From positions 713,501 through 777,500 of the forward strand of contig JAWNZC010000304.1 of NCBI GenBank assembly GCA_035771165.1: a stretch of 64,000 nt of DNA, read 5' to 3'. This document shows, piece after piece, positions 3,701 to 59,800 of the stretch. How positions within the stretch are numbered: the first letter of the stretch is position 1; every line of letters begins with the position of its first letter. The notes under the pieces were generated by a model. It had not been told where the DNA came from. It made no database searches and saw only the letters and a list, made by a program, of their open reading frames with translations. Origin of the DNA: Paragorgia papillata (lineage: Eukaryota; Cnidaria; Anthozoa; Scleralcyonacea; Coralliidae). A program made the translations under genes and the position numbers.

Positions 3701-3821
3701 TCACTTGGCCATTAATAATTACTGCTCCCTCATTAGTATTTCCCACAAGTTGGTCACCAAGACTATTGCTAACTTGTTCTTTACTCTGGGACTGGAATCC
3801 TAGGACCTCTGATTGCCCCAC
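699..3821 (-). CDS. Pol polyprotein (PR-RT-RH-IN) of gypsy element
   Basis: This open frame of 1,040 codons begins with GTG in the Gag overlap, so translation would depend on frameshifting from Gag. Aspartic protease motif DTG is at residues 46-48. The reverse transcriptase spans about 340-560, with the catalytic YLDD box at about 496-499. RNase H starts with the HIDAS motif near residue 655 and the linker ends near 768 with DSLSRL. An integrase HHCC zinc domain (HX3H...CX2C) is near 955-1003. The frame then leaves the integrase core: the last 20 or so codons (about 760-699) are out of frame with the DDE core, which continues in another frame to position 1. This is a clear inactivating break. 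Confidence 0.93.
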   Translation of the reverse strand: MGQSEVLGFQSQSKEQVSNSLGDQLVGNTNEGAVIINGQVTRALIDTGSQVTTISKYFYDQNLSDCKIEPVEMLHVVGAGGQTVPFLGYVSVDISFPENEAGTCKKIPTLALVVPNTTYNKNVPALIGTNLLKSYAERHGQHNNTSPHGHNISPVWKQVFKACETHQKFCHSHSGHTKVKSTLRHPVTIGANESLVVWGLSHSTPGFRCKAILEPSSSPGLPSQLATTPSLVCLVPGKTTCRIPVELTNNSESPITLLPKAVLGELHMVTEVISDQQSSVKEPAQQDPNVDCPVDLQGTSLTEEQKEKVQLLLKEMSHVFAKSNKDLGCSSEIQHEIKLTDAQPVKQRCRRVPPGEVEEFREAVKDLLEAGVIRESKGPYSSPVVLVRKKDKTLRICVDFRQLNRKTIKDAYPIPRIKETLEALQGAKWFCTLDLQSGYLQVQMAEEDKAKTGMTTPFGLFEFNRMPFGLTNAPATFQRLMERCLGDLNMKICLVYLDDVVVFGKSFEETLERLEAVLKRLEQFGLKLKPSKCKVFFKQIQFLGHVVSGEGIVPDPSKIESVTEWLSHPPSSHSQLQTFLGFVGYYRSFIHNFASIAQPLYKLIGGRTGSKEKGKPRPQWEWTQDCQVAFESLIAKLTQPPILGYPDFSQPFVLHIDASGDALGAVLHQTQQGKSRVIAYGSRTLSPAERNYCAYRREFLALKCSVTEKFHDYLYGRRFHDNNPLTYLITSAKLNPTDHRWLASLAPYDFTINYRSGKMNTDADSLSRLPYQLSQDTSQSDVDATCIQPFLERLRPISSAETNSLCSSHSLKAIIQYHEVESKMSAPGSLFAPAVEAVCAKAHVVEDMESSQFCTHTSFSTFPGITPPEWPKLQQDDPDLRRVINILNGNIPLPTNLHSEPTDVRRLLQEKDRLFFRNDILCRKRKVEMVEQNQLVLPRRTRTQALRALHDEMGHLGVDRTLDLVRSRFYWPGMTRDVISYISGCERCIKRKTLDPLKAPMATIQATEPMELLAIDFFGFTTRKGRIREYTRGDGQLYEI

Positions 3822-4776
3822 ATCAGAGATCGATTGTAGTTTCCCGAATCTTCTTTCCTGTTGTAAGCACCTGGGGGTTTTGTATTCTTTGGTGTGTTAC
3901 GACAGCCTATCTGTATGTGACCCACTTGGCCACAACGAAAACAAGATGGTGGGTCTCCTATATCACCCCGTCTCTGATCTAATCGATTCCTTGACCCCCC
4001 TGTCGATGCTGCTTGTCTACCTGCATTCTCTTCTGGGGATGACACCACTGCTCTGACTTCCTGGAGCATACTACCATACATTTGGGTGAACCACTTGGGT
4101 GGGCTATCTGGTATTCCTCCATCACTTTCACTGGGATCATCAACCACAGTCTGGTGTGCTCTCCCCACATATTTGGCTTCATGGTTACCCCCCACTTCTT
4201 TTTCACTATACCGGGCAGCACTGATTAATTCTGCAAAGGATTTGCACTTATCCTTTCTGTGACGTGCTTTATCTTTAACCGACACCTTCAGTCCTTCCCA
4301 GAAAAGTACCCTTAACTGTTTGTCTACCGCACTTTCGTCAGGTAAAAGATCAGTTCCTCTTACCTTTGCTTTTCTTACTTGATTATCTAGCCTCGAAGCA
4401 AAAGCTGCTACTTCTTCATGGGCTGCCTGTTTCCACTTGTAAGCTTCAGCTAACATTTCATCACCGGTTGTTCCACCATCTTCTTTATAGAACTGGTCTA
4501 ACTGAGCCAACATGTCCAACAGAGAAGTCTCTGGCCCAAACCCAACGACTTTACTTTTGGCCTCACCTTGCAACGATCGACGAATCTGTTCGGAGGTGTT
4601 CGGAGATTCTTCATGGTGCTCTCTACTTCGAATCTCCAAACTCTATACGGAACACCTTTACCACGATCCCTTTCAGAAAATCCAAAGAACTGGGAAAACT
4701 GCGGTTTGGCTATGTACTGGAATTGAGCGGCTGCGACAGACCCAGTTTTGTCATGCTTTAGCTGGCTTGACAACAC
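3800..4776 (-). pseudogene. Gag polyprotein of gypsy element, frameshifted
   Basis: The main frame (4639-3800) encodes an acidic and basic Gag-like capsid region followed by a CX2CX4HX4C zinc knuckle (CFRCGQVGHIQIGC) near its C terminus, the nucleic-acid-binding signature of retroelement Gag. The N-terminal part lies in a different frame (about 4776-4600). The ORF at 4639 has no ATG, so the gene is broken by a shift near 4600. The 3' end overlaps the pol frame by about 20 nt, consistent with Gag-Pol fusion by ribosomal frameshifting, which is the usual arrangement in this family. No function is expected from this copy. Confidence 0.85.
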
Positions 4777-11205: not shown

Positions 11206-14200
11206 CTATGGATATACAAAAAAACAAAATAAAAAAAGAGCTGGGATGCATTTACTTCTTGATAATATACATAAATATATATATTTTTTAATTTTGATGG
11301 ACGAGAGCAGCGCAGTTTTAAAGTGCCCATGACATGAAAATTAAGTTTGTCTTATTTGAAAGAACACTTAAAATGACAAAGTAACATCTTTTGCAGTTTT
11401 TCGTTTCCTTGCTTTCGTTTTTGAGATATTTCAGTTTGTTTGATATGTTAATGTCACATATTGTGACGTACATGCAATGTGCATAATGAGTTATTGGAGA
11501 AGGTTATATATTTTAGCTATTATCAAACAGAATCACTTGAAACTCTACATGTTTGGTATTGTGGGAAGAACACACACATACTTCCTACGACTAGTTTGGT
11601 TTGATATTAATTAGCAAAGATTTTTTTCTCTGATAAGTCATTATGCAGTTTTATTATATGACACAAGCTACTTCCGGTGGAATTGCGTACTCTGATTTGA
11701 TTGGATGAGACGCGTCACGTGCCGGTCCGTAATTTCCCGGTAATGGACCGGTCCGGATTACGGATTTGGTTAGCCATTTTGTTTACAAAGCCCGTACAAC
11801 GAAAGGAAACTTTGAAAAGCCGCAAAAATTGAACGAATTTAGTAAACTAAGCACTAAATCGTGTATGAGTCGGACGATGAACAGTCAAAAAGAGGGCCTT
11901 ACTATCATGAAAGCAATAGAAGAACAAGATTGAAAATGACGATTCTATGCCACGCTATGCGTATGTAAAGTATGTTGTTTAAAAAAGCCATGCCATATAA
12001 TAAACCTCTTATTAACCTCGACCGCTTGGTCATTACGGGAAATATCAGACCTCGGTCTTTTATGTACGAACCTCGCCCTATGGGCTCGGTCCGTACTGTC
12101 AAGACCTCGGTCTGATATTTTCCCGCAATGACCGCGCTCTCGGTTAATAGGGACTTTAAGATCCACGACACGGCAAGCTTAATAAAAACAAAGTAAATGA
12201 ATAATTTGTAATCCCAAGAGTATATATCAATACCGTCCTCGTTCTCTAAACAACGCCACCCTCAGCATTTTCACGTCTTCAGAACAACGCGAACACGCTG
12301 AGAAATCAGAGTTGCTCCTAACGTTGACTTCAGCTCAGACACTGCAGCCGTTTTAGCAAGAACCAGAGCGTCTTGAAAGTCGTTAAACAAGCTTAAACAT
12401 GAAATACGGCAGTTAATTTACCGTGTCTTCTTTTAAATGCATTGCTTTTTAACGTTTTTAAGGCCGCGTCGTCGAGCTAGCCGCGTCGTAGATCTTAAAG
12501 TCCCTAATAAGAAGTTAGTACGTCACAACATGTGACATGCACATATCAAACAAACTAACCTAGGAAACCGAAAACTACAAAAGATGTTACTCTGTCATTT
12601 TAAGTGTTCTTTTAAATAAGACAAACTTAATTTCCGTGTCATAGGCACTCTCAGGGAAATACAGTGCAGAAAAAAGAAAATGCATGCAGCGCAAATTTTT
12701 GGAGCCATTCAAAAGCAATATATACCGAAAAGAGCCAATTATGTTTGACAGCGGATTTTGGCGGATGGTATTTTTCAACCTGGTAGACAGGCTTTTTCTG
12801 CACAAAGTAAATAAATATGGCGGCGAAGTTTCGGAGTAGTGGATGACAATTCGTTGAATTTTTATGCTATAAATTATTCTTTAATATTGTCAAATAAAAC
12901 GCCTGCAAGAAGACTAGAAGATTCTTATAAGTGCTTTGAGTAAACTTTTTTAGTTAGTGCATGATGATAGGAGTGCAGCGCTTTTAAACAACCAAACTGA
13001 TATAGAAGGAGTAGACGGGCCAAAGGGTACTCTATTAAATGTAAGTATATACAGTTGACTTGAACATTTTTTCATGTACATTATTTAACAGTTATTCGCC
13101 GAAGGCGAGGTGAATATCGGTGTATAATAACCGAGACGAAGTCGAGGTTATTATTCAGCGATATTCACTGAGCCTGAAGCGAATAATTGTTTTAGTATAA
13201 ATACACATTTTCGTACTTTTAGGAACAACATTTTCTTTAAAATTGTTAATTTCCTCGTCTGTCGCATTGACAACTTGGCTGGCGGCCATTTTGAATAAAC
13301 GCTGTAGGTGATTATCGAGAATTAATCCGAAGTAGCTTGACCAATCAGCGCGCGTGATTTTCTATAATCACCTGTGTATTTATACTAATAATAAATAGTA
13401 GCATAGTTTAGTTTTTCATGCAATTTTGAAAAACATTCACTGTTTCCACTTGCCACGAGATCAGTGGTAAAGCGACGTTGAAAAAAAACAACCAGAAACG
13501 CGGCCTACCATAGAAGCCTTAGCAACTCATGCCGACTTTATTGCCAGATACAAAATAATAGATATATGACACCCCCAACTGTATGCCCTTATCCATTTTA
13601 TATAGAAATCAGTGGTCTTACCTCACTGACACTGATCTAGTGGTATTATAGCGTAGTTGCTATTAACGCGTTTCGGAAGTGATCCGAACGGACCCGCTGG
13701 GGAAGGCCTAGCAAAATTCGTAAACACTTTCACTTTACAGCTTGGTTGTTTATTGAGGAAGAATTGTGATGTTATGATGTCCTAAGTGTTTCCCAACATT
13801 TACTATTTCCTTCTGCATAAAATAATACAAGCCTGCTCACCTCGGATCGACGAAGTTTCACTAGCCTAGCTTTTTTATCACTAGCTTTCCTTCTGCAACC
13901 GCCAAACGTTGAAAGTTATAAACAGTTAAAGTTTCATTTCGGGCTCCAATTAGAATATATTTTATAATTTCCCTCTTTCGATCGCCAAGATCTTTGGTAA
14001 AATCTTCGCATACATCCTTATACTTTTATACCGTCACTCATTGTTGTTTACGGTAGATGTACTAGATCCCAGGAACACTCGAAGGGCCAAAACGATTCTG
14101 CGCAGGCACGATCGGAAATCGCATAGAAAATCGGCCACTTTCATGGGACAGTTCGCAGTCCACGTGCGTGCTGGCTCAAGTGAGTTGTCGGCCGTGTATT

Positions 14201-23200: not shown

Positions 23201-26200
23201 TCGCTCGTGTATTGTTAAATATCTCATGAGATTGGCGAGAACGAAGAATTTCGTGCCATGCATGTATGCTGATTAAACTCGATTCCCTACAAGCGAAACA
23301 AGTCGACTACCTGCGACTTCATCGCTCATAATAAACAAGCGAAACAAGTCGACTACCTGCGACTTCATCGCTCATAATAAACCCAATTATCTCCTGGCAT
23401 TACCACCTTAATGTATACAGAACTCGCGATCAAGCTCTCGGCAACGGCCTCCGTGGCTCACTGGTCAGAGCATTGCACCAGAATCGCAAGGTCGTGGGTT
23501 CAATTCCTGCCGGAAGGCCTGTGTAGTTGCATTTTTCGCAACTGGTCCTGGTTTGGTCTTAAAATGTATATATTCTACACTCGAATTTTCCTTCACCCAA
23601 AATCCTTAGAACATGCTATGTAATCGAGTGAAATGCCCAATATTACTTCTAATAAACCCAATTCTCTCCTGGCATTACCACCTTAATGTATACAGAACTC
23701 GCGATCAAGCTCTCGGCAACGCCCTCCGTGGCTCAGTGGTCAGCACATTGCACTAGAATCGCAAGGTCGTGGGTTCAATTCCTGCCGGAAGGCCTGTGTA
23801 GTTGCATTTTTCGCAACTGGTCCCGGTTTGGTCTTAAAATGTATATATTCTACACTCGAATTTTCCTTCACCAAAAATCCCTAAAATATACAGGTAGTCG
23901 ACGTGGGCAAGTCTGTCCGCCACTGAAAGAGTACGTATAACAACCTGGACTAATTTTTGGCAATTACCTTTTAATATTTTAAGAATCATTGCTAAAACCG
24001 CACCACTTGATGGTGGAGGTGAGGTCACAATGCTGTAATTTTCGTCCAAACTAATGCTGATCGACTCCAGCGGCTTCACATCATAATCCCGCAAGTCATC
24101 TTCTGTGATGATTCCACCTAATCTTTGGATGTCTTTGGCTATTTCCGTTGCAAGTTTCCCATTGTAGAAACTCATTGGCTCGTTAGCAATTTTCTCTAAT
24201 GTATCTCCGAGTTCAGGATTTATAAGTATGTCATTTAAGCCTAGCATAGTGCCGTCATCTTGGAAGAAAAGCTCCCTAAAATAGTTAAAGTTGTCGTTGT
24301 AAGATGAAAATATCATCGTTAGTCCACGATGTATGTGGTCAGCATGCAGAGATTAACAACAACAAAAACACTCATTTACTTGTATCTTTTAACTATGTAC
24401 ATCCATTTATTTATTTACTTATTTATTCATTTATTAAATTATTTAATTATATTTCAATTGACGGGACCAAAAAAGATGGCGGCGGTACATTTAACCACAA
24501 TGCTTTGCAGCCTCAAATTAGCTCAAATAACGACTAAACATTGTTTATATTACATTTTTATATTTAAAACCATATCTTCCAATAATTCTGCAAGAAACAA
24601 TATTTACTGCACGCAAAAGATTGTGGTTAAATGTACAAGTCGCCATCTTTTTCGGTGCGGTGAATCGATTTATTCATTAATTTTTTCATTCATTATTTGG
24701 TTGGTTGGTTGGTTGGTTGAGTGGTTCGTTCGTTCGTTCGTTCGTTCGTTCGTTCGTTCGTTCGTTCGTTCGTTCGTTCGTTCGTTCGTTCGTTCGTTCG
24801 TTCGTTCGTTCGTTCGTTCGTTTTTTGAAGCCAACGTGTGTCGTTCTGCGTTTTTGGTTCCGAGATGTGCAAGAAAAGCGTTTATATTGAATTACATGAA
24901 GTGTCACAGAAATATATGCTAGCAAAATAAACAATTCTAGCAAGACAGCGGAGAACTAGCTAGAAATTGCTTCAAGTTTAGCTAATTTTTTAAAAGTTTT
25001 CAGCTTTGAATACAACTAGTGACAAAAATAGAAGAAAGAAGGGTCACTAAATTTGAACATAAAGGTATCAACATATTTGTAACATGCATGCGCAGAACGA
25101 GTTGGAAATCGTCTATATAGCTACAGTCTATATGTCTACTAATAACAATACCTAAATCCTGGATCTTTATAAAGGGAATCCTTTCTCTTCTTCATGACAT
25201 CATATAGTATTTTATGAATCGGGAATCCCTTCCTACAGAGCTCAATCGATGGCTGAACCAAGTCTTTCCACTCTATTCGGCCATGGTCTTCCCAGACCTT
25301 GTACATGGCCCTCACTTCCCCTGGAACGCCGATTGCGAGAGCACCTGCATGAAAGCAGAATTTAAAACTTGAATCAATGTTTTGGTTTAGGATAAAAATT
25401 GGTACGCTTGTGAGAGTGGTGAAGAGCTCCCCTTTTTATGAACAGAAGAACTTGAAAAGAACATTTACTGAAAATTTCAAGATAATCTCGCGTATAGTTC
25501 TCGAGTTATGAACTCTCAAACTTTACCATGGCTTGTTCGTTTTTGGAGAAATATGGCCTTCTCGGTAACGATGCCTTATGATGTACGCAAATGGATCATT
25601 GATGCTAAAATCCATTGTTCTTATATGCGTAGTTATCCATTTGCGTACGTCATAAGGGCCAAAAGCCCAAATTTCTCCAAAAATGAACTAGCCATGGCAA
25701 ACTTTGAGAGTTGGTAGCTCGAAAACTATATATACATCAGATTCTCTTGAAATTTTCAGTGAATACTCCTACCACACTCCTTTATATTCATTAATACAAT
25801 ATATACACCTGATAAAAATTCTCAATTTTGATTGGCTGAGAGCAGTGTAGTTTTAGGGAAATACAGTGCAGAAAAAATTGTAGAAATACAGTGCAAATTT
25901 TTGAAGCCAACGTGTGTCAATTAAAGGCAACATACATGTAGACCAATCGCGTTCCACAACGAATTTTGACGGATTGTATTTTCCGTACCCAGGTACGTTT
26001 TTCCTGCGCAAAATAAATAAATATGGCGGCCAGAATTCGGAGTAGATGAAAACAATTCCTTCAAATTTGGAGCTTTTTTGGATTTATTCTTTAGTATTGT
26101 CAAGTAAAATGCCTGCAAGAACACGGCTAGAAGAGTTTCAGTGGTTCGAGTAAACTTTTTCAAGTAGCGGCGAGAAGAGCGAAGCGCTTTTAAACAACCA

Positions 26201-28379
26201 AATGTACGAGGAATGGACGGGCAAAAAAGGGCACTGTAAGTGTACAGTTGACTTGAACATTTTTTCGTGTATATTGTTAATAAACAATGGTATGATAGAA
26301 GCGATGATTTTATTTATTTTGGGTAACATTTGACAGTATTTAGATACTGATAACCCAATGGCCCTCATCTTTTGATAATTAACAATTATTGGACGAGGTT
26401 GAGCAAAATATCGTGATTTGTCAGTGGCGAGCAGATCAGTTATTTGCCGATGCCGAAGGCAGAGGCAAATAACTGAACTGCGAGACACTGACAAATCACG
26501 ATATCTTGTGAAAACCGAGTTCAATAATTGTTTTATTATTCGATTTATATTTTATTTGACATTGTTTACCTGTAATTGTCCATTCATTTCTTTCCAGCTT
26601 GGCTGAACGAGCGATTTACGTTTGCCGAAATTGAGTGTAACGCGCATGAGTAGAATATTATTTGCTGCAAAACAACATCTCCGACTAATGCGCATGAGCA
26701 GACTGTTATTTGCAGGCAGTTGTTTATAAATCGAATAATAAAACTAGTTATTATACAATTAACTGGGGGGGAACTATGGTGTTAACTTTGCGAAGGGAAG
26801 AAAACCTGAGAACCGGATGATAAACATTCGCCGTACAGTAGAGAAGCAACAACTTACTCACATGAAGCTATAAGAAGGTCATCCATCGAGGCATATGTTG
26901 GTGCGCTCCCCCTACTGCTGAAGTTAAGCCCAATCGAATGAGGTTAGTGCTCAGATGGGTGACCATGCACCATCTTAGTTTCGTGTGAGCAGAGTTGTTG
27001 ATCCTCTCCTGCATGTGCTTCGAGGGTTTTTCAACAGGTTCTCCGGTTTTCCTCCTTCCGTAAAATGAACACCACGATCTCCCTAGTTAAATCTACTAAC
27101 TAGTTCCTTCAAGGGGTCAACGTCATTGGGTTATCTAATCAGTACCAGTTATAAATAAAGTCATAGTTAATAGAACATGCATGGTTTGGAAACTCGTCCA
27201 AAGTGATTGTTCTATGTTTTTGTTCAAGTTTATGGAAATTTGTGCAATTTCACGGTATTGTATTTTCTGTATAGTGAAGCAGTCATCCAATAGCAACGCT
27301 CGGGTTTAATTAGTGAGTTGCTTCATCGTCACGTGTTGTGGTTCTTCATTGTCACGTGTCCATAGAATTTACTTCCATATAAGGAACTCCATCGTCAGTT
27401 CAACATGACCATACTTCATGTTGAAAGACAATAGAGCTTCCAAACCATGTATATGTTCTATTAACTATGATAAGGTAAATAAAGTCGCTTTATTCATCCA
27501 AGTACTATATAGCACCATTCAACTGGGCTTAACTTCATCGGTGGGAGGAAGCGCGCTAAAGGTAAGGTAATACGGGCAACATTTTTCTTCAACTTGGAAT
27601 GCAACTTTGTTGCAAAGTTGAAAAGCGTTGTTGCACATGTTACCACCCACCTTAAACATTGTCACGCAACAATGATTTTGTTGCAAGTTGAAAAAATTTG
27701 CTGAAAAAATTAAAGTAGACTCCAGTTCTACTTGCTGCAACATGCTGATTCAACTTGCAACAAAATCATTGTTGCGTGACAATGTTTAAGGTGGGTGGTA
27801 AAACGTGCAACAAAGCTATAATTCAATTTGCAACGCAACAATGTTGCAGCAATTTGTTGCTCCTATTACTTCACCTTAATAGCTCCTGCATGCCTTTTTC
27901 CCAAATCGCACTTGAAACTATATGCTATTGCCTATACAAATATTTGCACCGTTATTTCCAACCTGACCTGTTTTAGATGATCCAGTTTTATTTACAAACA
28001 TATCTCGAAATGCATTTCCAGGTGCTTTTTCGCGTCCGTTGTAGAATGACGACGATCTCGTTTTATTTAAATAGACGACAATAAACAAACCACCACCGAT
28101 CCCCGACGAATGGACGTTGTTTACTCCGACGCAAAACAGCGTTGCTATGGCAGCGTCGACAGCCGAACCACCCTTTTTCAGAATATCGACACCGATGTCG
28201 GAGCACATTCCAACGTCGGCAGCCACCGCTCCAGTCAAGTAGACGCCATCGTCGATCGTCGCCGCAGGTCCGTCAGATCTCGTAAGTACTACCGCAATGC
28301 ACGTCAGGCTCACCAACACCAATATGGTGACAATAATTCCCGTAATCAACAGGCTATTTTTGAAGGTAGGATATCGCAT
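10933..28379 (-). CDS. gamma-glutamyltransferase, complete 7-exon gene
   Basis: Joining seven exons with GT/AG junctions and compatible phases gives 584 residues plus stop, close to the usual length. Gamma-glutamyltransferases sit in the plasma membrane facing outward. They cleave glutathione and transfer its gamma-glutamyl group after autoprocessing at a threonine that becomes the N-terminal nucleophile of the small subunit. Visible here: a short cytoplasmic N terminus, one membrane anchor (about residues 8-30), SGIGGG and an RE.AP substrate-binding block in exon 1, DGGTTH with the processing threonine at about residue 392 (exon 5), NNEMDDF (about 429-435), an SSM-P block, GASGGT, and the conserved C-terminal AGY. 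All key residues are present, so activity is expected. Introns total about 15.7 kb and are full of transposons. Orthology to one particular vertebrate paralogue cannot be decided. Confidence 0.95.
11322..12649. mobile_element. TTAA-flanked MITE (family TTAA-A) inside R1
   Basis: It begins AGTGCCCATGACATG after TTAA (11318-11321) and ends with the inverted ATAGGCACT at 12649. The terminal halves mirror each other through GTAACATCTTTTGCAGTTTT. It carries further insertions (palindrome about 11993-12520, and R2 at 12149-12505). The TTAA target suggests a piggyBac- or Kolobok-type mobiliser. Confidence 0.75.
12149..12505. mobile_element. R2 element with AGGGACTTTAAGATC termini
   Basis: The 357-bp element starts AGGGACTTTAAGATCCACGA and ends with the inverse, GATCTTAAAGTCCCT. 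It is flanked by AAT on both sides and splits the right arm of a palindromic element. A related 3'-truncated copy is at 17760-18117. Confidence 0.75.
13401..14289. other. intron DNA, nothing recognised
   Basis: This is gamma-glutamyltransferase intron sequence. No coding, RNA or clear repeat structure could be supported. Confidence 0.4.
14290..14650. repeat. inverted-repeat element in intron
   Basis: The arm CTGCTGCCAAACGTTTGCGC (about 14306-14325) is mirrored near 14610-14637 with several mismatches. It is probably a decayed MITE. Confidence 0.5.
14701..14941 (-). CDS. gamma-glutamyltransferase exon 6
   Basis: The acceptor is TTTTTTACAG/GTTTGG at 14941 and the donor GCACAG/GTGAGG at 14701. 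It encodes [15 protein letters not shown], the paired-serine block and GASGGTRI, all lining the active site in the family. Confidence 0.96.
14942..15825. other. intron DNA, nothing recognised
   Basis: AT-rich intron sequence with short A and T runs. No supported feature. Confidence 0.4.
15835..16858. mobile_element. 1,024-bp TIR element with 9-bp TSD
   Basis: The termini CAACCTCGTACCCAGGGCCC and its complement extend as arms of about 79 bp. They are flanked by a perfect 9-bp direct repeat CGTAGGCCG (15826-15834 and 16859-16867). The interior has small opposing open frames (16109-16457) with no recognisable transposase. The class is uncertain (Mutator-like by TSD length, or hAT-like if one base is shared). 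Confidence 0.85.
16885..17552. mobile_element. Mutator-like MITE with 9-bp TSD (copy 1)
   Basis: The 668-bp element begins TAGCCTACGCATAGACG and ends CGTCTGCACGCAGGCTA. The 9-bp direct repeat CCCCAGAGG lies on both sides (16876-16884, 17553-17561). The termini match the elements at 37004-37086 and 62517-62726. Confidence 0.85.
17720..17736. repeat. poly-G run
   Basis: A G-rich run, at least 15 nearly uninterrupted G residues, just before the R2 fragment. Confidence 0.9.
17760..18117. mobile_element. R2 element, 3'-truncated copy
   Basis: It starts AGGGACCTTAAGATCTTCGA and matches 12149-12505 through phrases such as AATGAATAATTTGTA and TTTTTCACGTCTTCAG. The right terminus is lost. Confidence 0.7.
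19137..19401. mobile_element. palindromic MITE with TA duplication
   Basis: The left arm CTGCCATTTGCAAGCCACCG and the long block up to ACGTTGAACATTTAA are mirrored on the right, with TA at both borders (19135-19136, 19402-19403). A Tc1/mariner-type origin is plausible. It interrupts a satellite unit. Confidence 0.8.
19430..20077. mobile_element. TTAA-flanked MITE (family TTAA-B), 648 bp
   Basis: The termini AGGTGACGTACAGTCCGTTC and the inverse are flanked by TTAA (19426-19429, 20078-20081). Inside lies a second inverted pair (about 19668-19747 with 19935-20008), suggesting another element nested within. The same termini occur at 47018-47337. Confidence 0.87.
20583..20770 (-). CDS. gamma-glutamyltransferase exon 5 (catalytic Thr)
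   Basis: The acceptor is TTATGTAG/GTCGTT at 20770 and the donor CTTG/GTAAGT at 20583. It contains DGGTTHLSV. The first threonine after GG is the expected autoprocessing site and nucleophile. TSTIN follows at the 3' end. Confidence 0.96.
20771..21415. other. intron DNA, nothing recognised
   Basis: AT-rich intron sequence between gamma-glutamyltransferase exons 4 and 5. No supported feature up to an (ATT)n run at 21418-21445. Confidence 0.4.
21466..21716 (-). mobile_element. 5S rRNA-derived SINE
   Basis: On the minus strand the 5S-like head holds the internal promoter phrases AAGCCCAGTTAGACGGGGTT, AGTACTTGGATGGG-like and GACCG. A tail with CATGTGAGT, GCTTCGAGGGTTTTTC and CCGGTTTTCCTCCCTCC follows. 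This is the architecture of SINE3-type elements. Confidence 0.85.
21725..21935 (+). mobile_element. LINE 3' end (RT C-terminus) fragment
   Basis: The frame contains [12 protein letters not shown] and [12 protein letters not shown], matching the terminal YNLR...R...FKNSFIPS pattern of LINE reverse transcriptases. It is 5'-truncated and directly abuts a 5S-derived SINE. Confidence 0.7.
22135..22274 (-). CDS. gamma-glutamyltransferase exon 4
   Basis: The acceptor is AAACAG/GATTT at 22274 and the donor AATGAG/GTATGG at 22135. It encodes [13 protein letters not shown] and LLGDP, hallmark blocks of the family, and ends in phase 0. Confidence 0.95.
22336..22590. repeat. ATAGA / GGAAT pentamer microsatellite
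   Basis: About 130 bp of (AATAG)n grades into about 115 bp of GGAAT/GGATA-type units. Serine/proline/isoleucine-rich frames across it are artefacts. Confidence 0.97.
22591..23285. other. intron DNA, nothing recognised
   Basis: No supported gene or clear repeat boundary between the microsatellite and the SINE pair. Confidence 0.4.
23290..23382. repeat. 46-bp direct duplication
   Basis: Two adjacent copies of a unit starting GCGAAACAAGTCGACTACCT and ending CGCTCATAATAAAC. Confidence 0.9.
23386..23655 (+). mobile_element. tRNA-derived SINE (family S1), copy 1
   Basis: The tRNA-like head has an A box (GTGGCTCACTGGT) and B box (GGGTTCAATTCC). A body with TTTTTCGCAACTGGTC and TGTATATATTCTACACTCGA follows. 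It is nearly identical to copy 2, about 275 bp downstream. Confidence 0.85.
23656..23895 (+). mobile_element. tRNA-derived SINE (family S1), copy 2
   Basis: It repeats copy 1 from CCCAATTCTCTCCTGGCATT through the tRNA-like head (GTGGCTCAGTGGT and GGGTTCAATTCC) to the S1 body. The two form a direct tandem. Confidence 0.85.
23968..24275 (-). CDS. gamma-glutamyltransferase exon 3
   Basis: The acceptor is CTATTTTAG/GGAG at 24275 and the donor AAAAG/GTAATT at 23968. It encodes about 102 residues including the conserved FYNGKLA block, GGIITEDDL and a [13 protein letters not shown] block of the large subunit. Confidence 0.96.
24468..24657. repeat. palindromic MITE-like repeat
   Basis: ACCAAAAAAGATGGCGGCGG and GTACATTTAACCACAAT are mirrored at 24621-24657. 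Confidence 0.75.
24722..24822. repeat. (TTCG)n tetranucleotide repeat
   Basis: About 25 perfect GTTC/TTCG units, preceded by a short (TTGG)n run. Open frames in both directions are artefacts. Confidence 0.98.
25152..25344 (-). CDS. gamma-glutamyltransferase exon 2
   Basis: The acceptor is TTTCATGCAG/G at 25344 and the donor TTTAG/GTATTG at 25152. It encodes [16 protein letters not shown], the conserved GVPGE block of the large subunit, and reads on to [11 protein letters not shown]. Confidence 0.95.
25412..25790. repeat. palindromic MITE-like repeat
   Basis: The block TTTACCATGGCTTGTTCGTT...TTATGATGTACGCAAATGG is mirrored by CCATTTGCGTACGTCATAAG...CTAGCCATGGCAAA. Outer arms include GAGAGTGGTGAAGAG and the inverse near 25770. 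Confidence 0.75.
25812..26760. repeat. dispersed repeat R1, uninterrupted copy
   Basis: It matches 11285-11321 plus 12650-13400 without the MITE, so it serves as an empty-site copy. The 3' part is a palindromic section (about 26385-26760). Confidence 0.8.
26771..27095. mobile_element. head-to-head pair of 5S-derived SINE fragments
   Basis: A minus-oriented fragment (about 26771-26895) meets a plus-oriented one (about 26905-27095). The latter has AAGTTAAGCCCAATCGA, CAGATGGGTGACCATG and GCTTCGAGGGTTTTTC. Both are diverged. Confidence 0.75.
27162..27471. repeat. palindromic MITE-like repeat
   Basis: CATAGTTAATAGAACATGCA at the left is mirrored by TGTTCTATTAACTATG at the right. AAATAAAGTC stands just outside both ends. 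Confidence 0.78.
27490..27558 (-). mobile_element. 5S-derived SINE fragment
   Basis: A short minus-oriented piece containing the complement of GTTAAGCCCAGTTGAATGG and AGTACTTGGATG. It is cut by the next palindrome. Confidence 0.6.
27559..27877. mobile_element. palindromic MITE (TTGCAACAA type)
   Basis: AAGGTAAGGTAATACGGGC at the left is mirrored by GCTCCTATTACTTCACCTT at the right. The central arms share CACGCAACAATGATTTTGTT. It lies about 90 bp from the donor of gamma-glutamyltransferase exon 1. Confidence 0.82.
27968..28379 (-). CDS. gamma-glutamyltransferase exon 1
   Basis: The start is the ATG at 28379-28377. An in-frame extension to 28415 has only TTG and is not used. The exon encodes the membrane anchor, [20 protein letters not shown] and SSGIGGGLF, then the NGREKAP block. 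The donor is CAG/GTCAGG, with the last exon base at 27968 (phase 1). No upstream 5' UTR exon could be identified. A MITE begins about 137 bp upstream (28516-29054), so the proximal promoter is partly transposon DNA. Confidence 0.93.
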
Positions 28380-28515
28380 TTTGAATCGGAAAGGTCTAGG
28401 CAAGAAATAGTTCAAATAAAACTACTGATAATCGTAATCATATCTTCAAAAATATTAATGGATAATTCATGAAGCTATTCAGAACACTCGCAGTACATGT
28501 TTTATCAGATCTAAA

Positions 28516-29953: not shown

Positions 29954-30759
29954 TCTGCCTCCTTCGCATGCCCTATTGCATCATGGACAGGTCACACTTT
30001 TGAGAGGGCCTGCCAGATCCTGTAAACAAAGTGGGGACTGATCCCATTATGCACAGCGAGACTAGGCCCTATAGTTTTGAGAGGGCCTGCAAAATCTTTC
30101 CGGTCGCTGTTCGACAAACGTACGTCAAGTTCTTTTAACACTGTGACCCACCAAGAAATTCGGTCTAAACTTTCTCACAGATCATGACAATGAAGAAACC
30201 AGTATGTTTTAGAATTACCGACCTTCTGCCAATAATATTTTTAGCAACAAAAAGGAATTGAAGGGGAAAATATCTGCCGAACAAAAGCAAATTCGACGGT
30301 CAGGAAAGTACAGGTTTTTCTTATTGTTTTTTGGTTTATTTAGCTATCGAAGACAGTCAACTGACCAAGAGTTAATGAGATTTAATTTTGTTAAATTGTA
30401 GGCTATAGTGCAGCGTAATTCAAGTTTCAGTTGTTGTGGAAACCGAAAAAGTATAAACCCTCGAATCTCTGGGTAGACTAAAGTGCATTTTCGTTGATTA
30501 TTCCGGCCGAAAGTTGACAAAGTTCAACCGTAATTGCTTTTTTCAACAATTCCTTCATTTTAAAGCTAGGATTCGTATGTCGCAAGTCTTCAATGTCCTT
30601 CAAAATCGTCGGATATAGCCATGGCTATTAACAATGGTAGTCAATTATGCAAATTTATTCCGTGCCAAGTTTTGCCAAATTTTTTACAGGATCTTGCAGG
30701 CCCTAAATTCGGCGTGTGTGACCTGTCCATGATGCAACGAGGGCCTGCGGAGGAGGCAG
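29954..30759. mobile_element. hAT-like non-autonomous element with 8-bp TSD
   Basis: The 806-bp element has terminal inverted repeats built on CTGCCTCC and ATGATGCAA/CATGGACAGGTCACAC. The 8-bp direct repeat AGTTCGAG stands at 29946-29953 and 30760-30767, as expected of hAT. A second partial copy of the interior is at 49724-50303. Confidence 0.83.
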
Positions 30760-34634: not shown

Positions 34635-35019
34635 CTATCAATGTAACTTGTCGTAAACAAGCCGTATACCTTAAACGCTAATCGTATATGCAAGCGATGC
34701 GGTAAAATCATTACCGGTTAGCGTATAATACTATATAAGCTGTAAATTCACTAATTTGTTGCCTATAGACGCAACTACACTGACACGCAACCTCACCACT
34801 AAAACCTAATTATATACAATGAATCTGACTACATGAAATCCCAAGAACCAAATATTTACAAGATACTTGCCTACCCCCTTCCAGATATCATAAGTTAGGC
34901 GACGTACTTGTTTCGACACCAACGTCTATTGAAATCTTGGCTAGGATTCTCTAATGAATGGTTATGATGGGGTAGGGATAAAACGCGGAAGCGGAATGGC
35001 AGAATGGCGGAAACGGAAT

Positions 35020-35150
35020 GGCGGAATTGGGGATAAAACGCGGAATTGGGGATAAAACGCGGAATTGGGGATAAAACGCGGAATTGGGGATAAAACGCGG
35101 AATTGGGGATAAGACACGGAATTGGGGATAAAACGCGGAATTGGGGATAC
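35020..35150. repeat. left 19-bp minisatellite arm
   Basis: About seven units of CGGAATTGGGGATAAAACG with single changes (for example AAGACAC in one). It forms the inner part of the left terminal repeat. Confidence 0.96.
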
Positions 35151-35223
35151 AAGAATATAATGAAAGCACGCTGTAAAGCACAGGCAGCCCAGACTTGTAC
35201 TCCGCCTTTTATAGAATGAAAAT

Positions 35224-35388
35224 ATTGCCGTATTTTCTGTCATTATATGCAGAGAGAACACCGCTCAACTACGGCCGTTCAAAGTAATGCTATTACAATG
35301 AATGAGTTGAGACTTGTAATAGGATTACTTTGAACGGCCGTAGTTGAGCGGTGTTCTCTCTGTATATAATGACAGAAAATACGGCAAT
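35224..35388. repeat. 74-bp-arm hairpin inside the foldback element
   Basis: The arms at 35224-35297 and 35315-35388 pair almost perfectly around a spacer of about 17 bp. The right arm overlaps the first codons of the DIRS-like ORF. Confidence 0.92.
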
Positions 35389-36082
35389 GTTAGGGCATGT
35401 AGCATCTGCTTTACAACATGTTTCAGGTGAGAATTTTATTCAAGTCTCACAACCTGCTTCGTCAGGTTTGTCTAATTTTAACTCAGTTAGCGTTGCAATT
35501 GATGCTCAAGTTAGCGCCAAATTAAAGGCCAAAATTTGGGCCAATGAATTTTTGGATTTTGGTTTATTACTTAGCTCAGGGGCAAGTGATACCCGGTATC
35601 ACTTGTCTGTGAGCTCTCAAACAGGTTCATCATTACCAACGTTGTCCTTGGAACCAACCCAAAAAACTAAACCAATTTCGAATATCGAAGCGTGGACATC
35701 GGCCTTTCAAATTTTTGTTGGGGTTTACACTGGGAAATATCCCATGGAGGCCCCCGCATTAATGAAATATGGTGAAGTCGTTCGGGATTTGGCCGCGCGC
35801 GGAGGTGACTGGCGATTTTATGATACGCAATTTCGCAATTTACGTCAAACCAATCCGTCCGAAATGCCTTGGGGTTCAACTCATTGGGAACTTTGGATCC
35901 GTGCGCAGAATTTTAATAATTCGCGTTATCCAAAAAGCCAAACTATATATATGCGCAATAATTCTACGTCCTCTGTTGTCGGACCATTTGTTCCCAAGGG
36001 GTTTTGTAAAATGACATACAAAAGACAACGCAGCGGAATAATCATGGCAACAGCGAAGGTAGCCGCAATTGAATATCCCTGA
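35369..36082 (+). CDS. DIRS-like ORF1 (Gag-like) fragment, 237 aa
   Basis: The first true ATG is at 35369; an in-frame extension to 35351 begins with GTG. The product has a WTSAFQIFVGVYTGKYP block followed by ALMKYGEVVRDLAARGGDW, YDTQFRNLR and PWGSTHWELWIRAQ, then PKGFC. I recognise this as the ORF1 region that precedes the reverse transcriptase and tyrosine recombinase in DIRS-type retroelements (family recognition from memory of the pattern). The cysteine-rich end expected after PKGFC is missing, so it is a truncated capture. The frame is intact over 237 codons. There is no DIRS reverse transcriptase nearby. It could alternatively be a domesticated gene. Confidence 0.65.
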   Translation: MTENTAMLGHVASALQHVSGENFIQVSQPASSGLSNFNSVSVAIDAQVSAKLKAKIWANEFLDFGLLLSSGASDTRYHLSVSSQTGSSLPTLSLEPTQKTKPISNIEAWTSAFQIFVGVYTGKYPMEAPALMKYGEVVRDLAARGGDWRFYDTQFRNLRQTNPSEMPWGSTHWELWIRAQNFNNSRYPKSQTIYMRNNSTSSVVGPFVPKGFCKMTYKRQRSGIIMATAKVAAIEYP

Positions 36083-36689
36083 GTGCTGCAAATGATATAT
36101 ATAAAAAATTATGTACGAGCAAACAATGTTGAAATCTCAACGTGGGCATCTGAAAACAGTCAAGTTGCTCTAGCCCATAAAACATGAAACTACTTCATGA
36201 ACATAAAACTGTAGCAATGGGAAGTATAAATTGCTAATATAAAGAATAGAATATATAAAGATGGTATAATACACAAGGTAACCACAAGAATAGCAATAGC
36301 GCAAGGCTAACAAAATCAAACTTCCCATGCACAGGCAAAAATTGGACAGTGTTTGTCAATGCTCAAGGGCCCTTTTTGAATTAATCAGTAATTAAATTAA
36401 AATAAGTGCGAATTGCAAAATCATATCAAACTAAACAGATGAGTAAATTAGGGGCTAAAACTTAACATTCCGATTGCTCTCAAAATAGCCCCACGATAAT
36501 TACTTGGCAAACGCCAACAACGCGAACATTATATTTGTCGCGGAAAAGGCGCGCAAGATAGGAGTACAATTGGGTATATTACAAGTAATATTTGGCATTT
36601 CACTCGATGAAACTGGATATACTAGGTAATTTTGGTAAAGGAAAATTTTCACATAGGCATTTCATCGATTGGCTATTAGCAATTAAGTA

Positions 36690-36831
36690 GAATTCCGCGT
36701 TTTATCCCCAATTCCGCGTTTTATCCCCAATTCCGCGTTTTATCCCCAATTCCGCGTTTTATCCCCAATTCCGCGTTTTATCCCCAATTCCGCGTTTTAT
36801 CCCCAATTCCGCGTTTTATCCCCAATTCCGC
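36690..36831. repeat. right 19-bp minisatellite arm (inverted)
   Basis: About seven units of CGTTTTATCCCCAATTCCG, the reverse complement of the left arm, with higher homogeneity than the left. Confidence 0.96.
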
Positions 36832-37003
36832 CATTCCGTTTCCGCCATTCCGCTTCCGCGTTTTATCCCTACCCGGTTATGATGAATGTGATGAGATATA
36901 TCCACCTGGAAGGTGTCGTATATCTAACCACTTTATATCTGGCATATCTCCAATCAGAGAAAAATATTTGGTCATGTGTATGAGTTTTGAAGCCCGGTAA
37001 AGG

Positions 37004-37086
37004 TAGCCTGCGTGCAGACTTCCCCCGTTTCCGTTCGCCGTTTACCCTCCGGGGAACTGAAACGGGGGAAGTCTGCACGCAGGCTA
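37004..37086. mobile_element. Mutator-like MITE, 83 bp (copy 2)
   Basis: TAGCCTGCGTGCAGACTTCC is mirrored by GGAAGTCTGCACGCAGGCTA in an almost complete hairpin. It is flanked by GGTAAAGG (36996-37003, 37087-37094), 8 bp or 9 if the T is shared. Confidence 0.87.
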
Positions 37087-39977: not shown

Positions 39978-40475
39978 GACGTCACTTTCGGGCAGCCGTA
40001 CTTTCGGGTAGCCGTACTTTCGGGCAACCGTTACTTTCGGGCACGGAACGTAACTTTGGGGCAGAACGTAACTCGGGCAGCCGTACTTTCGGGCAGCCGT
40101 TACTTTCGGGCAGCCGTACTTTCGGGCAGCCGTTACTTTCGGGCAGCCGTAATTTTCGGGCAGCCGTACTTTCGGGCAACCGTTACTTTCGGGCACGGAA
40201 CGTAACTTTGGGGCAGAACGTAACTCGGGCAGCCGTACTTTCGGGCAGCCGTTACTTTCGGGCAGCCGTACTTTCGGGCAACCGTAATTTTTGGGCAGCC
40301 GTACTTTCGGGCAGCCGTTACTTTCGGGTAGCCGTAACTTTCGGGCAACCGTTATTTTCGGGCAGAACGTATATTGCGGGCAGCCGTACTTTCGGGCAAC
40401 CGTTACTTTCGGGCAGCCGGTAATTTTTCGGCAGCCGTAACCTTCGGGCAGCCGTACTTTCGGGCAGCCCGGAGG
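39978..40475. repeat. CGGGCAGCCGTACTTT minisatellite
   Basis: About 30 degenerate units of 15-18 bp (CGGGCAGCCGTACTTT, CGGGCAGCCGTTACTTT, CGGGCAACCGTTACTTT), with a longer higher-order block including GGCACGGAACGTAACTTTGG repeated at about 40031 and 40192. ARKYGCPKV-type frames on either strand are artefacts. Confidence 0.95.
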
Positions 40476-44809: not shown

Positions 44810-45542
44810 CTATTTGCGTTCAACCTTTTTGTGTAGCCTGGCAACCAAACGCATCGCGTATGTCGTGGTGTGCATCGACTTTATAGCAGTCTGAACATTG
44901 CGCAGACGAATCAACTCGTCCTCGTGAAAGAGGTCATGCTGTTCCTCCGGCGGCTGGCAGTAAAGTACGCAGATACGATACACCTGTAGCATAACGAGCA
45001 AGGCATTCTTTGCCGTGAGGAACAAAAACGTCCCACTTCCAGTGACCTTGTAATACGACACCAACACCAGGCGCACGACAAGAAATGGTAAGTCCTGAAG
45101 CAGCATCGGAGTCAGAAGTTGAATTAGATTGAGATTTTTGCGAACTAAATTCTGAAACTTTGTTACGCCGTTGAAAAATATCCCAAATATAGACCTGTTG
45201 TTTTTGACGGCTGGATTTCCATCATTTTCTGTAACGTCTTTTGTTCCATCTTGAATGTCGATTTTCCGATCGGAGTTTAGTTTCAACTGCAAGTTTTCTA
45301 GTCGTTCTTTTTGTTTTTCCATGGCTTTTTTGTGGGCTATCTTGTGTGTATACAAGGCCGGGGCAACTTGGGTTCGTTTAATTTTTACGGCTTTGTTTTC
45401 CTCGTTCGACAGTGCCGCTTCTTGTTTCAAGAGCTGTTCTTTGAATTCCTCGTGTTCCTTCGCCCTCGTTTCAACGGCCATGATTGTTACACTGAATTGA
45501 AAAAGGCTCATGGACCACACTGTCATCAATGCTCGTACGAGA
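44810..45542 (-). CDS. TMEM26-like terminal exon
   Basis: The acceptor is TCTATTGCAG/T at 45542 and the stop is at 44810. It encodes WSMSLFQF, then a Lys/Glu/Gln-rich, probably coiled-coil segment of about 110 residues, then LLQDLPFLVVRLVLVSYYKV and FLTAKNALLVMLQVYRICVL membrane segments and a basic tail. Confidence 0.87.
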
Positions 45543-48500: not shown

Positions 48501-50766
48501 GTAAAATCAACACCTACATTTTAGCTGTGATCCGAGAGCGCCTTTCATATGCCTCGATACACGGCCACGTTGATCCGCGTCCTTCGTAATTCAGGTAAGG
48601 ATGACTAGCCCCCAGTCCTTTATCCTTATCCTATCCACTGATCTCGAAAGAAGACTGGGTCGAGTAACTCATTGTTTATCAGGATCATTGTATATCGATT
48701 TGGTTCCTTGTTAATGGCGCCGATCAGGCAATTGTGTAGGTAGATCAATACGAAGATGGTAAATTCTGGACACAGTGGCGAATGCTGTGATTTTGATTGT
48801 AAAAAGCGAGAAATGAAGAAACAGGATGAGAACAACTCCATAGCGACATTTCACACATACAGTTGGTCCCTTAGTATAATGGCGGATTCTGGCTTCATTT
48901 CCCAAACAATAGTTGCCCGATCTAGTCTTCTTTCGAGATCAATGATCCTATCCCATTAACAACTTTTGAGTTTCATTGTCATGCATGAATGAGGGAAAGA
49001 AATGATCATGGACTAGTCAACACGTAGTTCAAGTAATTATCAGCGTGTTGAATTTGCGTGAATCGCGCGAATTCAAAAATTTCAACAAATTTATAACTGC
49101 GGAACCGACAGCCGGGCTAGCCCGGTTAACTGGGCTCACGCGATTGATTAGGAACTCACTGTGGTTTTGAAACTCACATAAACTAAATTTACAAAGGAGA
49201 ATTGGTTTAGTTTAGATGTAAACGAACCCTAACGTTGATTAACCTATCTCCTTTTGTGGCCGAGGAAAGAATTTCGTGATAATCAGCCCCTGACGCCGTG
49301 CCTCCTTAATTCGGGGGCGGCACTCGGTTACGGTAAAGGATCGAGAATATAGAAAATTTGAAATGTCTGTGAACTTACACGTCATTGCTCGCGACATCTG
49401 ATTCCTGGTATATTTCAGTCAGCTCGACTATGTCTGCGGCAGTGGCAATATAAACTAATAAAAGACTGGAAAGCTGGTCCCGTGATATCGCGCCTTTTGG
49501 AAGCATCCACCTGCCGACGACGAGGAGAAGAACAAATGTCTGATCCAATATTGAGAGGCGTTGTTCATCGTCAGCGCTGAGCTCGAAAATCTAAAAACAC
49601 GATATATGCAATGAATGGCAAAGAACAAATCAACATTACCTTCAAAGATCGTCAACACTCTTATTGAGAATTCTACGTTTTTGGTGCACTGACGCCCGAT
49701 TTTCCTTTCTTCCTCAGCTACCCCTGCCTCCTCCGCAGGCCCCTGTTGCATCATGGACAGGTCACACTTTTGAGGGCCTGCCAGATCCTGTAAACAAAAT
49801 GGGGACTGATCCCATTATGCACAGCGAGACTAGGCCCTAGAGGCGATAGTTTTGAGAGGGCCTGCAAAATCTTTCCGGCCGCTGTTCGACAAACGTGCGT
49901 CCAAGTTCTTTTAACACTGACCCACCAGGAAATTCGGTCTAAACTTTCTTACAGATCATGACAATGAAGACACCAATATGTTTTAGAATTACCGACCCTC
50001 TGCCAATAATATTTTTAGCGACAAAAAGGAATTGAAGGAAAAAATATCTGCCGAACAAAAGCAAATTCGACGGTCAGGGAAGTACAAGTTTTTCTTATTG
50101 TTCTTTGGTTTATTTAGCTATCAAAGACTATCAACTGACCAAGAGTTAATGAGATTTAATTTTATCAAATATAGGCTATAGTGTAGCGTAATTCAAGTTT
50201 CAGTTGTTGTCGAAACCGAAAAAGTATAAACCAAAGAGTCTCTGGGTAGACTAAAGTGTATTTTCGTTGATTATTCCGGCCGAACGTTGATAAAGTTCAA
50301 CCGTGAAATAAATTTAAATAAATAGATAAAAACTTTCTTCTTACCAATTTTCTCTCCTCGCAGAAGTTCTTTCGGAGATCGGCTATGTCGGGGATCGTCG
50401 GAGATGCATCGAAAGCCTCCGAGCATCTCCGACGACCCCAGCAACCTCCAATCTCCGAAATTTAACCTCTGCGGAGGAGACTCAGAGAGTGGTCTTTCTT
50501 TGAGATATAGTTTTTGTTAGGCGCAAATGATTACCCTACGTTGGATTATATTATATTGATGCTATCTAGCTTACCTCTCCGAAAGGATTCGTCCCATTGA
50601 TCGTGGTTGAACACTTAATGCCTTTATTATAGCCAAGGTTCTTTTGTACGCAATCGACTTGCTGAAGACGAAGGAACCAAAAACAGGGAATTTCAGTAAT
50701 AGTGAAAATGAAAATACTTGGACAAAACCTAAATGGGTAACAATTATGAAACGACGTAATATCAGC

Positions 50767-56800: not shown

Positions 56801-59800
56801 TAAACATCTTCGCCCAATTTCCCTAACACCTGTTCTTTCGAAAATAGCTGAAGAATTTGTGGTAAGAGAACATTTGAAACCAGCAGCACTTGAAGCTCTG
56901 GATCCAAACCAATTTGGTGTCATCCATCAACAAGCCAAGCCCTGGGTAAAAATGTTCCATAAATGGACTGAAGCAACGGATGGAAATGGAGTTTCTGTTT
57001 GGGTTATCATGTTTGATTACCAAACTGAAGTTTTTGATTATGTTGACCATAGCATTCTTTTATCTAAACTTAATCATCTTCGTGTCCCTAATACGACCAT
57101 AAATTTGATTGCAGATTTTCTCTGCAATAGGAAACAACGTGTAAAAATGGGAAATGATTGTTTTTCTGAATGGAGAAATGTTCCAGCTGGTGTCCCACAA
57201 GGTACAAAACTTGGACCTTGGCTGTTTATTATAATGATCAATGACCTGTCTCCAAATAGGGATGATCAAGTTAAATTTGTTGACGACTTGACTATTTCAG
57301 AAACAGTGCCAAAATTTAGCCACAGTAAGGTCCAAGATTATGTAACGGATATCCAAAGGTGGTCTGACACTAACCTGTTCCGTTTGCACGACGACAAATG
57401 CAAGGAACTAAGGATCGATTTTAAAAAGAACAAGAGCATTTTCACTCCAATCCACGTAAATGGAAAACAATTAGAAGTAGTTGAGGAGGCAAAATTACTT
57501 GGTCCCACGTCCGATTTAAAGTGGAATAATCATGTGAATAACATTGTGTCGAAATGCTCAAAACATTTATATCTTCTCGTGCAATTAAAGCGCGCCAAAG
57601 TTCCTGTTAAAGACATCACCCAATTTTACTCTACATGTATCTGTCCAATATTAGAATATGCTTCCACTGTTTTTCATTATTCACTCCAGAAGTACTTGAG
57701 TGAAGATATGGAGCGCATTCAAAAACGTACTCACTCCGTTATATATCCACTACTTAAATACGAAGACGCGTTAGTGGAAAGTGGCTTAGCAACACTTCAT
57801 GACAGAGGTGAAACAAGCATGTGAAAAACTTTTTAAACAAATTTTAGAAGACCCTAATCACAAAGTAAACAATCTTATTTCGAAAGTAGATACGTCTCTT
57901 AATTACAATTTGAGAAATATAAAGAGATTCATATTCCTAGTTTTAATACAGTTCGTTTTAAGCGCTCATTTTTAGTAGCAAGTAGTCTTAATATCAACAA
58001 TTAATGTCATTATATTTTATTTTATTTTAATAATTCTGTAATTTTCATACATAACTATTATGATCTACAAAATTTTGTAACCACCATGTAATTCAGTAAT
58101 TTCTACTGTAAATGTGTGAATTGTTAAACTATCTATCTATCTCAGTCATTGGAACCCAAGATAGATGTCCGTTTCCGCACAAGAGGGGTGTCCGCACAAG
58201 CTAGAGGGGTGTCCGCTTAATAGGGGTTGTAACTATATGGTGTTTTATTAAAGAAATGGCTGGGACCTCGCCTAAGTATCCGCTTAAGAGAGGTGTCCGT
58301 TTAAAAGGGGTGTCCGTTAATAGGGGTCCGACTATATATTAAAGAAGAATTTTTGTATCCACTGCGCATGCGAGTAGATGCTTTGTTGGCATGCAAGGTT
58401 TTCCGATATTAGTTAAGTAACAATAGAATATTCTTCGGGACTAACAAATTTCAGAAGGTTTTTCCGATCTCATCCCGTGTCAGTCCGAGCAGTCTGACGC
58501 AGTCGATTCGTGTACGCCCAAGCGTGTCTATTTGTATACTTGTATTCTTATCAATATAATATTCTTAAAAATATATAATAAATGCAACCTATACAACCTA
58601 TACAATCCCAAAAAACTTGTTTTAAGAAAAAAAGTACTTGTTTTAAGATTTTCTTGTCGCGTCTGCAAGATAATAATCTTGCTGGGTTTTCTTGACAAGA
58701 TATTTTGTCTTGAAACAAGATTAAATATCTTAAAACAAGAAATAAAATCTCAAAACAAGAAACATTATCTTGACAAGAATTGGAGGTTTTGCAGTGTAAC
58801 ATACTGTTCTTGTATTGCTAGATATATACTCTTATAAAGGTACTTTTGACATCATTTGAACACGAAAGAAGTGTAAAGGCACTCGGCTATCGCCTCGCGG
58901 TGCTCCCACTCAACTTCTTTCGTGTATAAATGACGTCAAACCCCTTGATTATAATATAAGAGTAAATATGCTTTATGTTTTATTTGTTAAATAATGAGTC
59001 GGTGTGTGATGGCGTATAGCGGATGACGTCAATGACGTGAACTTTTTCGCGTTTCCATGGTTATACATAAACACGGCTTTCACTGTCAATCACCGCACAT
59101 GAATTTTCAAAATGTTATTATATAAAAGTATTTCGCGTTTCGCTCGATTAAACTACATATTCTAGGGACTTTTGCTGAAGGAAAATGTCGAGTGTTAGAA
59201 TATATACATTATACGACTACCCCGGAATTGACTCATTTTAAAAAGCTTTCCCGGTTGGAATCGAACATGCGACCCCGCCATGGTAGTGTATAGCTAGACT
59301 ACATGTTCTCTAGGGATTTTTGTTGAAGAAAAACTTTGAGTGTAATTATAATATATATATATATACATTATACCAAACTGTATGGGACCATTTGCGAAAA
59401 TGTATCATCAAAGCCTCCCGGCTAAAATTGAACCTGCATCGCCAGTGCAGTGCTCTGACCACTGAGCTACTGAGGGTGTTGCCGTGTTGCTCATAGTCAT
59501 AAGTTGTTAGTTCTCAGTGGATATACATTGTACGGCGATCGAATGATAGACATTTACAAGTCTAAATATTCTAGGGATTTTTGGTGAAAGTAATTGCGAA
59601 AATGTATCATCAACTCAAGGCTTTTCGGCTTGAGTCGAACCCGCGAGCATGTGACACAATCAATGCAGTGTCGAGTGCTCTGCGCTATGGAGGCTGAAAG
59701 AGAGAGGCCTAGAGCTAAATTACAAGTTCTGTATATAGTAATACATGATAGTGACAGATATTTTACATGCATTGACACCATCAAAGTACATGTTCCAAGA

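Follow-up and report, generated by a model that had tools for sequence, protein, structure and literature searches.

A probable deletion derivative of a Mutator-type foldback transposon in Paragorgia papillata, patched with DIRS-like pieces, and its large kinase-bearing relatives

In Drosophila and in other hosts, foldback (FB) elements possess long inverted arms composed of tandem units, the number of which varies by arm and by copy, and their standard target duplication is 9 bp. Tm1, a Mutator/Foldback element of Meloidogyne, has composite inverted arms with a variable number of tandem units, a Mutator-type transposase and target duplications of 8-10 bp (PMC3169594). The maize Ds2/Ds-like elements are deleted transposons of which the interior has been replaced by foreign filler, and one Ds-type filler holds a fragment of an LTR-retrotransposon polyprotein (PMC3260210). 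Finally, viral-tegument-like (VTD) deubiquitinases are fused to transposon-associated domains in cnidarians, and VTDs also occur in Helitrons (PMC9741609).

The window analyzed here is a stretch of 64,000 nucleotides of contig JAWNZC010000304.1 of Paragorgia papillata. It contains a foldback element of 1,905 bp at 34970-36874, and these coordinates were confirmed to be exact. The outer parts of the element and its flanks are listed below; C numbers denote contigs.

34960..34969, no strand: left target-site duplication GGTTATGATG, with an exact copy at the right side
34970..35152, + strand: left arm, consisting of a 24-bp end, a short spacer and 7 tandem 19-bp units
35153..35391, + strand: the family's own left inner part, 98-100% identical in the C457, C419 and C42 copies and partial in C322
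36560..36690, + strand: the family's own right inner part, 98% identical to positions 11587-11782 of the C457 copy including arm units
36691..36874, - strand: right arm, inverted, consisting of 7 tandem 19-bp units, a short spacer and a 24-bp end
36875..36884, no strand: right target-site duplication GGTTATGATG, with an exact copy at the left side

At both ends of the element GGGTAGGGATAAAACGCGGAAGCG is read inward. The left and right arms are 94% identical over 183 aligned columns, and they differ by one 8-bp indel, by 2 substitutions in one left-arm unit and by 1 at the inner edge. By simple arithmetic, the probability that 10 bp at a given position match exactly by chance is about one in a million, and the relatives described below have different duplications of their own. 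The size of the element, its inverted arms of about seven 19-bp units and its exact 10-bp duplication, all of which the initial annotation had read from this DNA, were borne out.

A 171-nt hairpin at 35221-35391, which lies within the left inner part and does not appear in the initial annotation, is family sequence, and a 93% match to it lies in the C153 copy. Diverged relatives of its part 35293-35363 occur in both orientations at about 30 other places of the genome, a lower bound with 40 of 60 candidates scored. The stretch 36560-36651 of the right inner part is about 80% similar to 23584-23670, 59129-59186 and 60063-60150 of the window, and the first of these lies near tandem repeats with tRNA-like sequence. 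A comparison of the arm units with viral contigs gave 0 matches.

Tm1 has the end motif CCTACCC, seven bases that are also found at the right end of the window element (PMC3169594). The ends of Tm1 are asymmetric (A1 and A2), whereas both ends of the window element read GGGTAGG/CCTACCC, and the arm units of Tm1 are 13-15 bp long, compared to 19 bp here. Neither a DIRS filler nor a kinase-deubiquitinase gene is described for Tm1 in the part of that paper available to us.

We then searched the genome (618 Mb, 473 contigs) for the family. That search scored 40 of 1,138 candidates, so that the counts given here are lower bounds. Nine family loci were examined, the window included, and six of them, on six contigs, have both ends. 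The five both-ended copies besides the window element are as follows.

C457:393820-405652, 11,833 bp
C42:446460-459413, 12,954 bp
C419:2658996-2660684, 1,689 bp
C322:4842448-4846129, 3,682 bp
C153:122285-124285, 2,001 bp

Exact target duplications of 9-10 bp flank five of the six both-ended copies. That is, four have exact 10-bp duplications (GGTTATGATG in the window, ATTGGGATAC, CAACAATTAT and CACGCTACAT) and one has an exact 9-bp duplication (CACGTATAT), compared to the 9 bp standard for FB elements; the duplication of the C153 copy is 10 bp long with 2 mismatches. The number of units is 2 to 7 per arm among the six copies, and the family thus has the long inverted arms of varying unit number that are typical of foldback elements. 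At the remaining three loci (C322:5040957, C236:143638 and C339:2181356) the sequence retrieved showed no second end, and they were counted as single arms. The copies in C419, C322 and C153 are internal-deletion derivatives of the large form. Nested in the C322 copy is an insert of about 2.06 kb with short inverted ends (C322:4843648-4845706). At C100:3241402-3256651 lies a sister foldback element; it is 15,250 bp long, its arms are built of 18-bp units, and its target duplication ACTCTAGGT is an exact one of 9 bp.

The C457 copy contains three minus-strand frames in order, of which the middle one (303 aa) matches the MULE domain PF10551 with an E value of 3e-4 and a score of 21.6 bits, below the curated cut-off of 27.6. 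A neighboring frame gave a weak SWIM match (PF04434, E 0.066), and a weak IS256 match (E 1e-3) was also obtained for the family transposase. Two related frames of the genome match the MULE domain as well, both under the curated cut-off. The 303-aa frame has 114 matching proteins in the protein database, 8 of them with a precomputed PF10551; named relatives include one protein of Paramuricea clavata and one of the mussel Mytilus coruscus, the latter named a MULE transposase domain protein. The transposase part of the C42 copy is 98% identical to that of C457 and has one stop, and that of the C100 sister element is 77% identical and has 2 stops. The transposase search scored 130 of 147 candidates and is a lower bound.

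Two large copies (11.8 and 13.0 kb) thus carry MULE-type transposase sequence, and on this basis the family is assigned, from its sequence, to the foldback transposons of the Mutator superfamily (MULEs). MULEs give target duplications of 8-11 bp (PMC6446971), so that the 10-bp duplication, which had been taken as unusual at first against a typical 9 bp, is to be expected. By description, the Phantom MULEs of the same paper are comparable: they are animal elements with 8-10-bp duplications, some have SWIM and some have a minisatellite, and the Phantom table, in the part available to us, gives no cnidarian host for group 20. The initial annotation had called the element a foldback-type transposon and had proposed a search for several copies with the same arms and 10-bp duplications and for a large copy with a transposase. 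Copies with the same arms and with 9-10-bp duplications of their own, and large copies with transposase sequence, were found; the foldback family is real.

The interior of the window element is quite different from that of the large form. Positions 1-422 and 1591-1905 of the element match 1-365 and 11587-11833 of the C457 copy, with 97-99% identity in the aligned pieces. Between these family ends, C457 has 11.2 kb, and the window element has instead a DIRS-like patchwork of 1,167 bp, which is DIRS-derived except for 16 bp of filler and one base. The pieces were mapped on the DIRS copy in C409 (L002) as reference; L numbers denote the loci compared, L001 being the window's own place.

35393..36011 (element 424-1042), + strand: piece D, gag core, forward; L002 1501-2120, 614 of 616 aligned positions equal
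36007..36103 (element 1038-1134), - strand: piece C, from upstream of gag, inverted; 99% to L002 1021-924
36104..36119, no strand: filler of 16 nt, in none of the other loci compared (L001-L048)
36120..36499 (element 1151-1530), - strand: piece B, from upstream of gag, inverted; 98% to L002 754-380
36493..36559 (element 1524-1590), - strand: piece A, part of a GDSL/SGNH hydrolase frame, inverted; 98.5% to L002 179-112

The inverted pieces downstream of the gag part do not appear in the initial annotation. Identity of piece D across 19 DIRS loci (L002-L020) goes down to about 91%. The joint between the family sequence and D is blunt with one extra A, that between D and C is a 2-nt overlap, C and B are separated by the 16-nt filler, B and A overlap by 3 nt with a GT kept that splicing would remove, and A joins the family sequence bluntly. 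Four joints and the filler were compared with the window and L001-L048, and they were absent from all other loci. Only one of the six both-ended copies carries the cargo, which is not what was expected in the initial annotation, namely several copies with the same cargo; with 40 of 1,138 family candidates scored, a second cargo copy is possible.

The source of the cargo is, judged by its relatives, a DIRS-like retroelement. In the C9 copy of this retroelement, a reverse transcriptase (PF00078, E 2e-7) lies after gag, and after it comes a frame which resembles a tyrosine recombinase by eye only and gave no match in Pfam, PDB sequences or NCBIfam. Upstream of the gag of a C409 copy lies a GDSL/SGNH hydrolase frame (PF13472, E 4.5e-11; L049:6175-6786). 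We found 284 relatives of gag. Among the 120 listed, at least 64 are 340-415 aa long, and at least 65 have a C-terminal Cys/His pattern, defined by ourselves and resembling a zinc knuckle by eye. The named relatives include proteins of Nematostella and Acropora, and that of Acropora muricata (P0118) continues, by eye, into the start of a DIRS-type reverse transcriptase. The likeness to DIRS-type retroelements thus lies in the gag relative and in the reverse transcriptase downstream of it; the window differs in holding four rearranged pieces and no complete element.

The open frame of the element is located as follows.

35369..36082, + strand: 237-codon chimeric ATG frame, open (codons 35369-36079, stop 36080-36082)

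Of its codons, about 8 at the start derive from the family hairpin and about 23 at the end from inverted DIRS DNA, and about 206 between them are DIRS gag. The codons at both ends are foreign to gag. The gag core lacks the N-terminal 110-120 residues or so of its relatives as well as their C-terminal Cys/His tail. No Pfam family matches it, the PDB sequences gave one match at the level of chance only (E 3.2), and of 10 pattern matches of the gag frame in viral contigs none was confirmed. The frame had been described as intact and as a captured ORF1 of a DIRS-type element. It is indeed open, and its DIRS-type origin stands; the capture of an intact, working ORF1 does not, as shown by the truncated core and the foreign end codons. 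We consider that the frame is most likely a by-product of repair without function.

How can these structures be explained? We think that there is a good probability that the window element arose by deletion from a MULE foldback and is non-autonomous, and that its four DIRS-like pieces were acquired by aborted gap repair with template switching. In this process, a family copy would have been excised or broken. Repair on a family template would have restored both ends before it was aborted; synthesis from these ends would have continued on DIRS sequence, with several template switches, until they were joined. Among the observations that argue for this, the family ends are 97-99% identical to C457 while the 11.2 kb between them has been replaced, the joints are blunt or have micro-overlaps or filler, and the C419, C322 and C153 copies are internal-deletion derivatives too. 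Joints of this kind are commonly seen where DNA is repaired by end joining or with template switching. The resulting element would be mobile, if at all, only with transposase supplied in trans from a full-length copy.

It seems unlikely that the element instead belongs to a cargo-bearing, Pack-MULE-like lineage, in which the chimeric frame was captured once, kept, perhaps expressed, and transposed here together with the cargo. MULEs that pick up gene fragments are known (PMC6446971), an exact target duplication encloses the cargo-bearing element, and the frame is open, all of which would suit such a lineage. However, the cargo is confined to a single both-ended copy, its joints are absent from the other loci compared (L001-L048), and sequence is missing from both ends of the gag core. 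Furthermore, the interior comes from a retroelement and not from a host gene fragment, by which Pack-MULEs are defined, and with 2 differences in 616 positions from the DIRS copy there was no time for selection to show. Still less probable is the insertion of a DIRS element into a deleted foldback copy, followed by cutting and inversion. All four pieces do come from one stretch of one DIRS family. But their order and orientation would need one inversion and two more deletions, and yet the pieces are 98-100% alike to DIRS copies; moreover, the family flanks of the cargo are not contiguous in C457 (365 and 11587), which means that the loss of the middle and the cargo coincide.

Stretches of about 170-200 bp are absent between pieces A, B and C, as introns would be, and a spliced DIRS RNA captured as a DNA copy might be thought of. 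This is very improbable, because the B/A joint retains the GT that could have served as donor, the 16-nt filler sits at C/B, the 200-bp stretch absent between A and B starts within a coding frame, and piece D lies in the other orientation; on the joints we rejected splicing as the cause of the gaps. As for an assembly artefact or two satellites that resemble each other by chance, assemblies often go wrong in tandem repeats, and yet six both-ended copies on six contigs have the same ends and different target duplications. This excludes such an explanation for the family, and it is very improbable for the window copy.

The repair reading brings the window element near the maize Ds2/Ds-like elements. 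Ds belongs to the hAT superfamily, whereas the window element is a MULE with a DIRS source, two orientations and readable joints (PMC3260210). The element records with unusual clarity how a DNA transposon can lose its core and be mended with retroelement DNA: its four pieces lie in two orientations, each joint can be placed to the nucleotide, and the sources are 98-100% alike. It is a well-preserved case of a known process, and its full-length relatives are the more novel lead.

These relatives contain a second gene. In the C42 copy its frame is 636 aa long and contains a protein kinase domain (PF00069, E 1.3e-35). The gene was located in two elements.

L042:6021-7931 (C42:456024-457931), same strand as the MULE transposase and upstream of it: kinase gene of the C42 copy
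L052:642-2444, same strand as the MULE transposase and upstream of it: kinase gene of the C100 sister element

The C100 gene is 56% identical to the C42 gene over 607 aligned positions. The kinase gene of the C457 copy is broken and the C42 transposase part has its stop, so that no copy with both genes unbroken was found among the copies compared. No Pfam family covers the C-terminal half of the kinase gene. This half has the fold of the VTD deubiquitinases, and the Cys and Asp-x-His that are assigned as catalytic in VTDs (PMC9741609) are invariant in 6 of 6 aligned sequences. From fold and residues, the half is a VTD deubiquitinase-like domain and a putative deubiquitinase. The model of the full-length protein is poor (pLDDT 50.5), and its fold matches are kinases, which merely agrees with the Pfam match. 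Kinases were also among the 60 matches listed when the PDB was searched with a profile of alignment A3, because whole kinase rows stand inside that alignment.

Between C42 and C100 the synonymous differences are saturated (pS 0.74), so that no dN/dS ratio can be given for the whole kinase gene; pN is 0.26 for the kinase gene and 0.12 for the transposase part. These values point to purifying selection. The kinase search scored 69 of 291 candidates and is a lower bound. When same-strand hits up to 3 kb apart were joined, 52 kinase clusters (75 hits) and 91 transposase clusters (123 hits) were obtained. Twenty-three of the kinase clusters lie within 10 kb of a transposase cluster and 29 have no transposase hit within that distance. 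In all 23 pairs the strand is the same and the kinase is upstream, where about 0.16 would be expected by chance under random placement in 618 Mb, a figure that ignores the clustering of transposons. Since many diverged copies have retained the gene at its place upstream of the transposase, these results suggest that the kinase-deubiquitinase gene serves the transposon.

We think it fairly likely that the MULE foldback lineage to which the window element belongs, as a defective member, encodes in its full-length copies a transposase and a conserved kinase-deubiquitinase fusion. A cut-and-paste transposon would thus carry its own two-function signaling enzyme, perhaps steadying the transposase or blunting host control. 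The VTDs of PMC9741609 are found in Helitrons, in contrast to the MULE and the kinase fusion here, and its main text does not use the words kinase or Mutator. In the literature searched, no connection was found between MULE foldbacks and the viral-tegument-like deubiquitinases that Helitrons are known to carry.

Several other features were observed in the window. An 83-bp near-perfect hairpin at 37004-37086 has GGTAAAGG on each side and resembles a small hairpin insertion with an 8-bp duplication. On the minus strand, a retroelement at 699-4639 has protease-like, reverse transcriptase, RNase H and integrase zinc-binding domains together with a gag-like frame, and exon-like frames of gamma-glutamyltranspeptidase and of a TMEM26-like protein lie at 23834-24316, 27918-28415 and 44810-45529. 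A dispersed direct repeat of 0.58 kb with 92% identity occupies 29955-30531 and 49724-50304, and a minisatellite with about 29 copies of a 17-bp unit, CGTTACTTTCGGGCAGC, extends over 39980-40469.
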